Source: Phytoactinopolyspora mesophila (GTDB taxonomy: Bacteria > Actinomycetota > Actinomycetes > Jiangellales > Jiangellaceae). From it: a stretch of 64,000 nt of DNA. The DNA lies in the NCBI RefSeq assembly GCF_010122465.1, contig NZ_WLZY01000002.1, positions 740,371-804,370 on the forward strand, read 5' to 3'. Both the position numbers and the translations under genes were made by a program. Shown piece by piece: positions 20,689-30,386 of this stretch. The notes below the pieces were generated by a model that was not told the origin of the DNA, did no database searches, and saw only the letters and a list, made by a program, of their open reading frames with translations. Numbering within the stretch: the first letter of the stretch is position 1; each line of letters opens with the position of its first letter.

Positions 20689-21903
20689 CTAGCTGACGGG
20701 CTGGTTGATCGCGCTCAGCAAGTCGGCGAACCACGGGGTGGCGGGGTCGAACGCCTTGCCGCCCTTGACTCGCTCGAACTCGATGGCGCGCAGCCGTCCA
20801 CCGTGCTCTTCGTCGTGCCCGATCAGGCCGCCTTCGCGGCGTAGCGCACACTCGACCGCATAATCGGTGCAGCTCTTGATCAGCCGAAGGTCGTCGGCGT
20901 TGGCCGCGGCGGACCGGCTGTAGTATCCGCTCTTCTCCACGCGGACCTTCTCCGCGCCGAGCCGCGCGGCGAATTGCTTGGCGAACCACTCACCCGGATT
21001 GACTTTGTCCAGCTTGACGTGGCCGAACGGGTCGCGGGGGACTTCCTGCCCGGATGCCTCCAGCTCGGCGACGATCTCCTCGACCCCGGCGCCCTCGGAC
21101 AAGAAGATGGTGGCGCAGCCGATCTCGTCCATGATGGCGCGCAGCCGGCCGGCCTCGGCATCGATGTCGAGCTCGAGTTCCGGCACGTAGACGGCGTGCA
21201 CATCCCAGCGTCGCGGATCGACACCGATCTCCGGCGCCCATTCCTGAGTAGCCAGCCAGGACCGGTAGGCGCGTGCGGTGGCAGCGGTGAGCCAGCCGCA
21301 GTGGCGGCCCATGACCTCGTGGATCACCAGGTGGCGCGGATTGGATGTGTTCTCGGTGACGACGTTCTGTGCGTACCGTGCGCCTTGCTCGGCCGCGGTC
21401 CATGCCCCGAGGCTCTGGCGCACGGGGATGATGTCGTTGTCGACGGTCTTCGGCAGGCCGACGACGGTCAGCTGGTACTCATGACGAGCGAGGAACGCCG
21501 CGAGGTCGGCGGCAGTGGTGTTGGTGTCGTCGCCGCCGATGGTGTGCAGGACGTCGACGCCGTCGCGCTCCAGTTGCTCCGCGGCGACCTGCAACGGGTC
21601 CTGACCCTCGGCCACTAGACCGCGCTTGACCGCATCTTCGACGTTGGTGAGTTTGACGCGGCTGTTGCCGATCGGGCTTCCGCCGAATCGGTGCAGCCGG
21701 TGGGCAGTGGCACGGATCTCGGGCGTGATCGTGACCGAGCGGCCGGTAAGAAGCCCTGCGTAGCCATCGAGGTAGCCGATGATCTCGACGTCCGGCGCGA
21801 TCTCGGTGTAGCGCTCGATGAGGCCGCCCACAGCAGACGAGAGACAGGGTGCCAAGCCCCCTGCGGTCAGCATCGCGACTTTACGAATCGGCTGTTCAGG
21901 CAT
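20689..21903 (-). CDS. Phosphofructokinase, PPi-dependent type
   Basis: A 404-residue group II-like PFK. The Gly-rich start AMLTAGGLAPCLSSAVGG is followed by GGDD (residues 123-126), the catalytic PKTVDND (151-157) and VIHEVMGRHCGWL. The Asp in GGDD and the Lys in PKT are the residue pair associated with pyrophosphate-dependent rather than ATP-dependent enzymes, so fructose 6-phosphate is probably phosphorylated reversibly with PPi. The ATG at 21903 has a GGAAAGG site. The gene diverges from class II DAHP synthase across a family D repeat. Confidence 0.88.
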   Translation of the reverse strand: MPEQPIRKVAMLTAGGLAPCLSSAVGGLIERYTEIAPDVEIIGYLDGYAGLLTGRSVTITPEIRATAHRLHRFGGSPIGNSRVKLTNVEDAVKRGLVAEGQDPLQVAAEQLERDGVDVLHTIGGDDTNTTAADLAAFLARHEYQLTVVGLPKTVDNDIIPVRQSLGAWTAAEQGARYAQNVVTENTSNPRHLVIHEVMGRHCGWLTAATARAYRSWLATQEWAPEIGVDPRRWDVHAVYVPELELDIDAEAGRLRAIMDEIGCATIFLSEGAGVEEIVAELEASGQEVPRDPFGHVKLDKVNPGEWFAKQFAARLGAEKVRVEKSGYYSRSAAANADDLRLIKSCTDYAVECALRREGGLIGHDEEHGGRLRAIEFERVKGGKAFDPATPWFADLLSAINQPVS

Positions 21904-22007
21904 GGTTTTGACCTTTCCGCACACACTTCCCGCGCATTCAAGATGTTGGCGACGCATCACGCCGTCGTGCTGCGGTCCCATGCAACCCTATCTAAGGTGC
22001 CGATTCG

Positions 22008-22091
22008 CCGGACACTGCGTTGCGTCCTGCAGAGTGTGGCTCCCGGCGCACGCCGTGCAGGACGCAGCGCAACGTCCTGCGAACAGTCCGG
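22008..22091. repeat. Family D repeat, copy 1 (with outer arms)
   Basis: The 44-bp core 22022-22065 begins GCGTCCTGC and ends GCAGGACGC. An extra half-site AACGTCCTGC follows at 22071-22080, and CCGGAC/GTCCGG form an outer pair. It lies in the divergent gap between phosphofructokinase and DAHP synthase. Other copies are at 46847, 49136, 49192 and 62078. Confidence 0.9.
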
Positions 22092-22141
22092 AACGTGGGA
22101 TGTTTCGGCCAAATGACGGAAGACCCCTTACTCTTGGCCGG

Positions 22142-23503
22142 GTGACGTCGCATGCCGATCCCGACCTGTTCGCTGAGCTGACCGCTGAACTGAGTGGCTT
22201 CCCTGCCGCACAGCAGCCGGACTGGCCGGATCGTGGCGCGGTCGATCAGGCGGTATCTGAGCTTCGGGCCATGCCTCCTCTGGTGTTCGCCGGTGAATGC
22301 GACCTGCTCCGCGAGCGGTTGGCCGCGGTCTCGCGCGGCGAGGCATTCTTGCTGCAAGGCGGCGACTGCGCCGAGACCTTCGACGGGGTCACCGCGGACA
22401 ACGTTCGCAACAAACTCAAGACGCTCCTGCAGATGGCTGTCGTGCTGACATATGCCGCCAGCATGCCGGTGGTGAAGGTCGGGCGGCTGGCCGGCCAGTT
22501 CGCCAAGCCGCGTTCCAAGCCGACTGAGATCCGCGACGGCGTCACGCTGCCGGCCTTCCGCGGCGATATCGTCAACGGTTTCGAGTTCTCTGAGAGCAGC
22601 CGCACCCCGGATCCAGCACGGATGGTGCGCGCCTACCACGCTTCGGCAGCGACACTGAACCTGACCCGCGCGTTCGTCGGAGGTGGCTTCGCCGACCTTC
22701 ACCAGGTACACGCGTGGAACACCGACTTCGTCCGCTCGTCACCAGCCGGTCAGCGCTACGAGCGGTTGGCTGGCCGCATCGACCAGGCGTTGCGCTTCAT
22801 GCGCGCCATCGAGGTCGAGTCGGAGAACGTCCACAAGGTCGAGCTCTACTCCAGTCACGAAGCGCTGCTGCTTGACTACGAGACCGCGCTGACCAGGGTT
22901 GATTCACGTACCGGTCAGCCGTACGACGTCTCCGGCCACTTCGTCTGGGTGGGAGAGCGCACCAGGCAGCTCGACGGCGCCCACCTGGAATTCGCGTCCC
23001 GGATCCGCAACCCGATCGGGGTGAAGGTCGGGCCCACAACGTCGCCCGACGACCTGATGGCCCTCGCGGAGAAGCTGGATCCGGACCGTGAGCCTGGTCG
23101 GCTGACCTTCGTCTCCCGGATGGGCGCCAAGGCGATACGCGACGGTCTGCCGCCATTGATCGAGAAGGCGATTGCCAGCGGTCTCGTGGCGTCGTGGATA
23201 TGTGACCCGATGCACGGCAACACCTACGAGGCTCCGAGCGGGCACAAAACCCGGCGTTTCGACGACGTGATGGACGAGGTGCGTGGCTTCTTCGAGGTTC
23301 ATCGCACTTTGGGCACTCACCCGGGCGGGCTGCACGTCGAGCTCACCGGCGACGACGTCACCGAGTGTGTCGGCGGCGGGGATCCCATTGCCGAGGACGG
23401 CTTGCACAGCCGCTACGAGACGGTGTGCGATCCACGGCTGAACCGCACCCAGTCTCTGGAACTTGCCTTCCTCGTCGCCGAACTGCTCGACACCGCGCGC
23501 TGA
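22142..23503 (+). CDS. aroG: Class II 3-deoxy-7-phosphoheptulonate synthase
   Basis: A 453-residue class II DAHP synthase, first step of the shikimate pathway (phosphoenolpyruvate plus erythrose 4-phosphate). Recognisable segments are FLLQGGDCAETFDG, KVGRLAGQFAKPRS, FVWVGERTRQLDGAH, KVGPTTSPDDL and the metal-binding DPMHGNTYEA. The length and motifs match M. tuberculosis AroG. The GTG at 22142 is chosen because a TACTCT box (22129-22134) lies 7 nt upstream and the longer frame crosses a repeat. A separate class I enzyme is encoded at 31454-32512. It converges on trpS. Confidence 0.93.
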   Translation: MTSHADPDLFAELTAELSGFPAAQQPDWPDRGAVDQAVSELRAMPPLVFAGECDLLRERLAAVSRGEAFLLQGGDCAETFDGVTADNVRNKLKTLLQMAVVLTYAASMPVVKVGRLAGQFAKPRSKPTEIRDGVTLPAFRGDIVNGFEFSESSRTPDPARMVRAYHASAATLNLTRAFVGGGFADLHQVHAWNTDFVRSSPAGQRYERLAGRIDQALRFMRAIEVESENVHKVELYSSHEALLLDYETALTRVDSRTGQPYDVSGHFVWVGERTRQLDGAHLEFASRIRNPIGVKVGPTTSPDDLMALAEKLDPDREPGRLTFVSRMGAKAIRDGLPPLIEKAIASGLVASWICDPMHGNTYEAPSGHKTRRFDDVMDEVRGFFEVHRTLGTHPGGLHVELTGDDVTECVGGGDPIAEDGLHSRYETVCDPRLNRTQSLELAFLVAELLDTAR

Positions 23504-23559: not shown

Positions 23560-24621
23560 TCAGTAGCGCATGCCCATCGCGTCCTGAACGTCAGCGAGTG
23601 TCCGGTTGGCGACGTCGTTGGCGCGCTCGCTCCCGGCGCGCAACACGTCGCGGACGAGTTCCGGATGGGCGGCGAGCTCAGCGCGTCGTGCCCGGAGTGG
23701 TCGCAGGTGTTCGTTGACGGCTTCGGTGACCACGCGTTTGAGGCCGCTGGCGCCGCTGTCGCCGACCTCCATGGCCAGCTCGGCCGGGTCCGAACCACCG
23801 CACAACGCCCCCATGAGCAGCAGACTGGCGACCTCGGGCCGCCGCTCGGGCTCGAAGGTGATCAGCCGTTCGCTGTCAGTGACTGCGCGCCGGATGAGGT
23901 CCGCGGTCTCGTCCTCGCCGGCGCTGAGGGCGATGCCGTTGCGGCGGCTCTTGCTCATCTTCCGGCCGTCGACGCCGAGCAGCGTCGGCGCCGGCGACAG
24001 TAGCCCTTGTGGTTCGGCGAACAGCGAACGCCCGGCGGAGAAGCGCTCGTTGAACCGGCGGGCCAGTAGCCGTGCCTGTTCGATGTGCGGCAATTGGTCC
24101 GCGCCGACGGGCACCAGGTTGCCATGACAGAACAGGATGTCGGCGGCTTGGTGCACCGGATAGGTCAGGAGTAGGCCGCTGATGGAGCGGATGCCGGCTG
24201 CCTCGGCCTCATCCTTGACCGTTGGATTCCGCTGCATCTCGGCGACGCTGGTGAGCGCCAGGAACGGCAGTAGCAGCTGGTTGAGGGCCGGCACCGAGCT
24301 GTGGGTGAAGATGGTGGTTCGCTGGGGATTCAGACCGGCAGCGAGGTAGTCGAGGACGACCTCGTGCACGGTGGTCGCGATGCTGGCTGGAAGGTGGCGG
24401 TCGGTGATGACCTGATAATCCGCGATCACCACGTAGGTCTCCACGCCGAGTGCCTGTAGCTCGACCCGATTGCGTAGTGTCCCCAGGTAGTGCCCAATGT
24501 GCAGCGGGCCCGTGGGGCGATCGCCGGTCAGCACGCGGTAGCGTTCCGGAAATGTCTGGACGTCGCCGGGATCAGCCAGCAGGGTCTCACGGATGATCGC
24601 CGGGTTCACGGTGTTCGTCAT
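23560..24621 (-). CDS. trpS: Tryptophanyl-tRNA synthetase, attenuator-controlled
   Basis: A 353-residue class Ic synthetase with HIGH at residues 41-44 and KMSKS at 221-225; it charges tRNA-Trp. An AAGGAG site precedes the ATG. The mRNA leader (24622-24781) encodes a peptide with three consecutive Trp codons and two mutually exclusive hairpins, a classic ribosome-mediated attenuator. In Streptomyces coelicolor the auxiliary, indolmycin-resistant TrpRS gene is known to be controlled this way, so this copy may likewise be an auxiliary enzyme. Whether a second trpS exists elsewhere cannot be seen here. Confidence 0.93.
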   Translation of the reverse strand: MTNTVNPAIIRETLLADPGDVQTFPERYRVLTGDRPTGPLHIGHYLGTLRNRVELQALGVETYVVIADYQVITDRHLPASIATTVHEVVLDYLAAGLNPQRTTIFTHSSVPALNQLLLPFLALTSVAEMQRNPTVKDEAEAAGIRSISGLLLTYPVHQAADILFCHGNLVPVGADQLPHIEQARLLARRFNERFSAGRSLFAEPQGLLSPAPTLLGVDGRKMSKSRRNGIALSAGEDETADLIRRAVTDSERLITFEPERRPEVASLLLMGALCGGSDPAELAMEVGDSGASGLKRVVTEAVNEHLRPLRARRAELAAHPELVRDVLRAGSERANDVANRTLADVQDAMGMRY

Positions 24622-24690
24622 GGTTCTGCTCCTTGGATGAGGAGCCGCCGACGACGGGCCAGCCGATGAGGTCGTGACGATGAAATTTCT

Positions 24691-24738
24691 CGGCCGCCTG
24701 CGACGGCGGCCGATGGGTGTGCTCGGGTCGGGCCGCCG
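24691..24738 (-). promoter_or_regulatory. Trp attenuator: terminator and antiterminator hairpins
   Basis: On the minus strand, CGGCCGCC (24712-24705) pairs with GGCGGCCG (24698-24691) across a 6-nt loop, giving an 8-bp GC stem followed by AGAAATTT. Upstream, CGGCGGCC (24738-24731), just past the leader-peptide stop codon, is perfectly complementary to GGCCGCCG (24711-24704), which overlaps the terminator's 5' arm. Stalling at the Trp codons would free the upstream arm and block the terminator; finishing translation would cover it. Confidence 0.82.
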
Positions 24739-24739
24739 G

Positions 24740-24781
24740 TTAGGGCAGCCACCACCAAGAGGCGAGCACAGTAAACGTCAC
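24740..24781 (-). CDS. trpS leader peptide (V/M-TFTVLASWWWLP)
   Basis: A 13-codon frame starts at GTG 24781 and ends TGG TGG TGG CTG CCC TAA. Three adjacent Trp codons sit five codons before the stop, placing a stalled ribosome just upstream of the antiterminator arm. No ribosome site is visible. A CATACT box (24794-24789) lies 7 nt before the GTG, so the leader may be translated from a leaderless transcript that begins at the start codon. Confidence 0.8.
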   Translation of the reverse strand: MTFTVLASWWWLP

Positions 24782-24811
24782 GTCCAGCAGTATGTCATGC
24801 CACCACCCTTC

Positions 24812-24904
24812 TCGGTGATCGTCAGTGCGTTGTGGCTGCTGACCGCAGTGCAAATTGGGGCAAAATGCGCCGCGCGACGACCACAACGCACTGACGATCA
24901 CCGA
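24812..24904. repeat. Palindrome family E, copy 1
   Basis: Arms of about 24 nt contain CGGTGATCGTCAGTGCGTTG; the loop has TTGGGGCAAAATGCG. It lies between the start region of trpS and the stop of the FAD oxidase gene, both on the minus strand. With the attenuator it fills the 306-nt gap 24622-24927. Copies 2 and 3 are at 29032 and 30288. Confidence 0.92.
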
Positions 24905-29031: not shown

Positions 29032-29130
29032 CCTCCGGTGATCGTGAGTGGATTGTGGCTGTTCAACCTAGGTGCAAAGGGGGCGAATCGGACTGATTTA
29101 CAGCCACAATCCACTCACGATCACCGGAGG
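29032..29130. repeat. Palindrome family E, copy 2
   Basis: Perfect 31-nt arms contain CCGGTGATCGTGAGTGG. The loop has GGGGGCGAATCGGAC, shared with copy 3 in the opposite orientation. It lies in the divergent DUF2461/threonine aldolase gap. With the short repeats on either side it fills the 316-nt gap 28922-29237. Confidence 0.95.
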
Positions 29131-30287: not shown

Positions 30288-30386
30288 CTCCCGGTGATCG
30301 TCAGTGCGTTGTGGTTGCTATGCGGTCCGATTCGCCCCGGTTTAGCGCCACCGTGACGACCACAGCGCACTGACGATCACCGGGAG
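30288..30386. repeat. Palindrome family E, copy 3
   Basis: Arms of about 28 nt (CTCCCGGTGATCGTCAGTGC and onward) carry one mismatch. The loop holds GTCCGATTCGCCCC, the reverse complement of the copy 2 loop motif. It follows the threonine aldolase stop. Confidence 0.93.

Follow-up and report, generated by a model that had tools for sequence, protein, structure and literature searches.

On the minus strand of the window, by which we mean the whole 64-kb stretch of Phytoactinopolyspora mesophila DNA that was analysed, lies a tryptophanyl-tRNA synthetase gene (trpS) that is preceded by a short open reading frame and a series of complementary arms (Table 1). The product of trpS matched TIGR00233 with 231.7 bits (cut-off 176.75), and its best PDB match was the TrpRS II of Deinococcus (1yi8). 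Tail to tail with trpS lies a gene for class II DAHP synthase, the first enzyme of the aromatic pathway (21818-23503, plus strand; TIGR01358, 715 bits), ahead of which no Trp leader was seen. An inverted repeat (GCGTTGCGTCCTGCA ... TGCAGGACGCAGCGCAACG) is located within the 5′ end of the DAHP synthase ORF as listed, upstream of its conserved domain.

A palindromic repeat of 91 bp was also encountered, with copies at 24813-24903, 29036-29126 and 30292-30382, one of them separating the promoter of trpS from the FAD oxidase gene upstream. Two arms of 23 nt, near-perfect in their match (CGGTGATCGTCAGTGCGTTGTGG and its complement), flank a variable loop of 45 nt. The repeat occurs at several dozen places in the genome (97 match rows on the two strands together), and changes in the arms are often compensated (GCGTT/AACGC, GGGTT/AACCC, ACGTT/AACGT). 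Compound copies (L141, L146, L149, L153, L154) have a third arm inside, resembling a nested second, shorter palindrome. Four further genomes from the genus gave no match to this repeat.

Table 1. Features of the trpS locus, in window coordinates
Feature	Position	Strand	Basis or remark
-10-like hexamer CATACT, 7 nt before the leader GTG	24789-24794	minus	sequence and comparison
Leader ORF VTFTVLASWWWLP, GTG to TAA, 13 codons	24740-24781	minus	sequence; conserved in 18/18 Jiangellaceae with this trpS
Arm 1, outer half, UGUGCUCG, within the leader ORF	24763-24770	minus	pairs with 24725-24718; covaries across lineages
Three adjacent Trp codons TGGTGGTGG (putative sensor)	24749-24757	minus	sequence; 2-3 adjacent UGG in 18/18
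Arm 1, inner half, GGCUGCC (final bases of the third Trp codon, then CUG CC)	24744-24750	minus	helix with GGCGGCC of arm 2
Arm 2, inner part, CGGCGGCC (8-nt arm of the original prediction)	24731-24738	minus	one base past the stop codon
Arm 2, outer part, CGAGCACA, pairing with the outer half of arm 1	24718-24725	minus	sequence, folding
Arm 3, CGGCCGCCG, partner of arm 2 (predicted antiterminator) or arm 4 (predicted terminator)	24704-24712	minus	sequence, folding
Arm 4, GGCGGCCG, 3′ half of the predicted terminator hairpin, no U-tract after it	24691-24698	minus	sequence, folding
Hairpin GCUCCU-CAUCCA-AGGAGC, including the trpS Shine-Dalgarno sequence (24634-24629)	24628-24645	minus	possible sequestor
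trpS, auxiliary tryptophanyl-tRNA synthetase, TrpRS II type	23560-24621	minus	TIGR00233; PDB match 1yi8

The leader peptide and the spacing of its putative promoter

Read from 24794 to 24740 on the minus strand, CATACT is followed by GCTGGAC and then by the codons GTG ACG TTT ACT GTG CTC GCC TCT TGG TGG TGG CTG CCC TAA. The 13-residue leader with three adjacent Trp codons, as originally predicted, is thus present, and the CATACT box (at exactly 7 nt from the leader start), the arm and the hairpin predicted along with it were likewise found in place. It is the sole short ORF in the window in which WWW is followed by a stop codon, and no such ORF arose in 100 simulated windows. A second leader candidate, VSLPWWLP (1176-1150, minus strand), lies inside a long coding ORF and was discarded. 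Searching Rfam at gathering score, covering the trp leader and other families, yielded zero matches in the window.

We examined 22 Jiangellaceae genomes, including this one. A TrpRS of this type, together with a distant second TrpRS, was encoded in 18 of them, while three carried the distant TrpRS only and one incomplete genome had neither; the enzymes from the other Jiangellaceae were 66-77% identical to that of the window. All 18 genomes that hold this trpS have a leader with two or three adjacent Trp codons ahead of it, and the paired arms are conserved alongside, which answers in the affirmative the question of conservation that the original prediction had raised. It is this conservation that points to translation of the leader peptide.

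A NANNNT hexamer ends 6-7 nt ahead of the leader's start codon in 18/18 Jiangellaceae, the bases in between being variable, and TANNNT is found at 6-7 nt in 28/28 additional leaders, all but a few of which come from other actinobacterial families. Among all ATG and GTG triplets of the loci, the background for such a spacing was 0.7%. The hexamer spacing is far from chance; because the scan was free to choose among starts and spacings, and because its rows are related, an exact probability is not given. Since the -10-like hexamer sits 6-7 nt before the leader start throughout, the leader peptide is probably translated from the first base of its transcript, the GTG being the predicted +1. Both trpL1 and trpL2 of S. 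lividans are already known from RNA-seq to be leaderless (PMC8079986), so that a leaderless start at this locus would be an extension and would introduce no new principle.

Alternative pairings in the trpS leader

An 8-nt arm next to the leader stop codon had been predicted to pair perfectly with the 5′ half of a GC-rich hairpin, thereby giving two exclusive structures. Indeed, CGGCGGCC (24738-24731) and GGCCGCCG (24711-24704, the 5′ half of the hairpin) are perfectly complementary over 8 nt, and both the 2:3 and the 3:4 pairing were recovered. To these arms 2, 3 and 4 we add an arm 1 located in the leader codons, which makes the four-arm attenuator complete. Specifically, UGUGCUCG and GGCUGCC form a 1:2 helix with GGCGGCC and CGAGCACA (arm 2 lying within 24738-24718), and the 1:2, 2:3 and 3:4 pairings are mutually exclusive. 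When each was folded separately, the 1:2 pairing reached -30.8 kcal/mol and the 2:3 pairing -15.7 kcal/mol; the 3:4 hairpin, with its 9-bp stem, reached -21.1 kcal/mol. Energies alone do not favour 2:3 over 3:4, and because 2:3 cannot win on free energy the order of synthesis must decide between them.

The 173-nt leader as a whole folded at -81.5 kcal/mol, as compared to -63.6 +/- 4.1 kcal/mol for shuffled sequences (4.4 sd better, with 0/200 shuffles as good), and triplets of 7-mer arms with mutual complementarity and the correct order appeared in 21 of 20000 simulated leaders. The window's lowest-energy fold further contained a pairing of CGUGACG (24782-24776) with CGUCACG (24679-24673), which we treated as incidental because neither stretch is kept in the alignment of relatives.

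Within the Jiangellaceae, the GGCGGCC of arm 2 and that of arm 4 are invariant in the 18 sequences, arm 3 is one base off in one of them, and the inner half of arm 1 reads GGCUGCC or GGCCGCC in all 18 leaders. This near-invariance of arms 2, 3 and 4 leaves little covariation inside the family. Aligning orthologous leaders across lineages, as had been proposed with the original prediction, revealed covariation in the 1:2 helix, the outer part of which carries compensated changes (GUGCUCG/CGAGCAC, GUGCGCUC/GAGCGCAC, GUGUUCGC/GCGAACAC); by summed duplex energy, the natural arm 1/arm 2 partners of seven lineages were matched by just 5 of 5040 pairings. Four of the 18 leaders are read through arm 2 and stop just past it (e.g. 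CAGGCGGCCTGA). The stop codon always closely flanks GGCGGCC, on its 5′ or its 3′ side, such that a terminating ribosome would always be positioned over arm 2.

Because complements of 7-8 nt are frequent at high GC, such arms might in principle reflect base composition only, and the WWW peptide might have arisen by chance. However, the simulations of both ORF and arms, the z-score of the fold, the covariation and the recurrence of the same layout across many families all speak against such an origin, which the conservation already contradicts and to which we attach a negligible probability.

It is highly probable, instead, that a ribosome-mediated Trp attenuator controls the auxiliary TrpRS gene, and the leader, the exclusive arms and their family-wide conservation support the original prediction in this respect. 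The model is built on sequence and comparison, namely the leader, the arms, their conservation, the 1:2 covariation, the second trpS and the residue changes described below, and from these we infer the transcription start, the stalling, the termination, the inducer and the drug tolerance. Judging from the -10 spacing, transcription would start at the leader GTG, and a 70S ribosome would translate from the first base. With Trp-tRNA charged, the ribosome would reach the stop codon and sit over arm 2 or, alternatively, release and let arm 1 pair with arm 2; with arm 2 thus occupied, 3:4 would form and transcription would end ahead of trpS. Charged Trp-tRNA may run short because Trp is lacking or because indolmycin or another TrpRS inhibitor hits the housekeeping enzyme; the ribosome would then stall on the UGG run and cover arm 1, upon which 2:3 would form, arm 4 would stay single and trpS would be transcribed. 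What is then made would be an enzyme of the TrpRS II type, for which a lower indolmycin sensitivity is expected.

The presumed block on trpS expression and its known counterparts

While the locus had been predicted to be a textbook attenuator, this description holds for the leader and the exclusive arms but not for the terminator hairpin, since all 18 Jiangellaceae leaders lack a U-tract after arm 4. Intrinsic termination at 3:4 is therefore no more than presumed, with Rho or a U-independent stop as alternatives. It is thus conceivable, though on balance doubtful, that the leader peptide controls trpS via Rho-dependent termination or via sequestration of the Shine-Dalgarno (SD) sequence, and not via an intrinsic terminator. 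Besides the missing U-tract, which is shared by the trpL2 hairpin of S. lividans (PMC8079986), such control is favoured by a stable predicted hairpin that holds the SD in most relatives and is built from differing sequences (GCUCCU/AGGAGC, GGUCUGC/GCAGACC, CCUCCG/CGGAGG, GCUCUC/GAGAGC). In seven lineages, two of which share sequence, the natural partners of this SD hairpin were equalled by just 3 of 5040 pairings. However, the SD helix of the window itself was equalled by 324 of 1000 shuffles, and the related leaders of Promicromonospora, Kitasatospora and Corynebacterium do carry U-rich tails, other families being without them.

Moreover, the SD was equally hidden in nearly all lineages whether 2:3 or 3:4 was forced, and no antisequestor was visible. 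An antisequestor joining arm 4 to the SD hairpin was considered and rejected, as SD accessibility did not change between the forced folds; a simple translational switch is for that reason unsupported. Sequestration of the trpS SD may nevertheless contribute, and we retain it as a lead. A more elaborate and rather unlikely variant would be a two-step switch in Jiangellaceae, in which a U-less or Rho-assisted stop and a gate formed by a conserved SD hairpin act in series behind a first-base 70S start, so that across the actinobacteria a drug-tolerant TrpRS would stay off for as long as the housekeeping enzyme works.

The proposed attenuator shares the 1:2, 2:3 and 3:4 logic, and the ribosome stall at Trp codons, with that of the E. 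coli trp operon, although the latter has a Shine-Dalgarno site of its own for the leader and a U-run terminator, neither of which is seen here. Vecchione and Sello reportedly described an attenuated trpS1 in S. coelicolor in 2010. Further precedents for an attenuated auxiliary trpS are trpS2 of S. avermitilis (PMC1262725) and trpL2-trpS of S. lividans, which is leaderless by RNA-seq and without U-tract (PMC8079986). These Streptomyces genes belong to a different family of organisms from the window's host, and resemble the present locus in having a Trp leader peptide and alternative hairpins ahead of a second synthetase gene. The S. lividans trpL2 leader shares both the leaderless start (predicted here) and the absent U-tract, but its peptide (MMTRTCTQLWRAA) contains one Trp, as opposed to three adjacent ones in the 13-residue leader of the window.

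The trp operon attenuators of Streptomyces and Corynebacterium likewise feature a WWW leader (MFAHSTRNWWWTAHPAAH in the case of S. lividans trpL1) and a triple of complementary arms of the gGCC-rGCy-GGCC type (PMC1262725), and the S. lividans trp operon leader is also leaderless (PMC8079986). However, trpE is the controlled gene there, whereas here it is trpS, and without a U-tract. In this genome, no WW leader was found ahead of trpE, and none of the related chorismate-enzyme genes had a convincing Trp leader.

The auxiliary synthetase and its distribution

A second trpS, for which a search of the whole genome had been proposed, was found on contig C5 and encodes the housekeeping TrpRS, which is 35% identical to the attenuated enzyme. 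In B. stearothermophilus numbering, residues 9 and 43 are Arg and Gln in the TrpRS II-type enzymes, against Gln and His in those housekeeping copies that could be aligned correctly (row L104, read in an incorrect frame or strand, was left out). His43 matters for indolmycin sensitivity. Because an enzyme with Asn in place of His43 was resistant to indolmycin (PMC4899734), and because His43 is Gln here, it is plausible that the attenuated TrpRS is an antibiotic-tolerant spare.

The genome also encodes a bacterial NO synthase (PF02898, 466 bits) outside the window, at 127825-128865 of contig C7. Deinococcus TrpRS II, the nearest solved structure to the present enzyme, pairs with NO synthase in tryptophan nitration. 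The attenuated TrpRS might similarly serve chiefly as a partner of NO synthase, with the attenuator just matching its supply to the Trp level, and NO synthase was indeed found in 18 of the 22 Jiangellaceae genomes searched, including 17 of the 18 that have this TrpRS. However, one relative has NO synthase without this TrpRS and another this TrpRS without NO synthase, the NO synthase gene is on a different contig from trpS, and of 46 TrpRS II genomes from outside the family only 5 carry NO synthase, so an obligate partnership is not general. Since NO synthase is this rare beyond the family, it cannot explain the attenuated gene in general, and we consider such a role improbable as the chief one.

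Similar leaders, with other arm sequences, were found in many further actinobacterial families, where the hairpin finder misses arm 2 in some rows and arm lengths are rough. Among 48 sampled TrpRS II genes, an attenuator preceded 22 of the 25 from genomes with two TrpRS versus 4 of the 23 from genomes with one (Fisher p ~1e-6). The attenuator label clusters on the tree (6 changes versus 16.6 in shuffles), which holds five independent contrasts for attenuator versus second TrpRS, none of them opposed. With five such contrasts only, the association between attenuator and second TrpRS is no more than suggestive. As a separate observation, Sanguibacter and Austwickia-type genomes (L040, L052, L070, L075) have a Trp attenuator and, apparently, TrpRS II as their sole kind of TrpRS.

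Attenuated trpS genes and leaderless Trp leaders were known in Streptomyces; what this locus usefully adds is the breadth across actinobacteria, the leaderless spacing and the missing U-tract. The comparative evidence suggests that leaderless leader peptides and an attenuated spare TrpRS are common to many actinobacterial families and no peculiarity of Streptomyces. Lacking a U-tract, this leader offers a compact system in which to ask how high-GC actinobacteria stop transcription, and the attenuated TrpRS II genes stand out as genes that probably confer inducible tolerance of TrpRS inhibitors.
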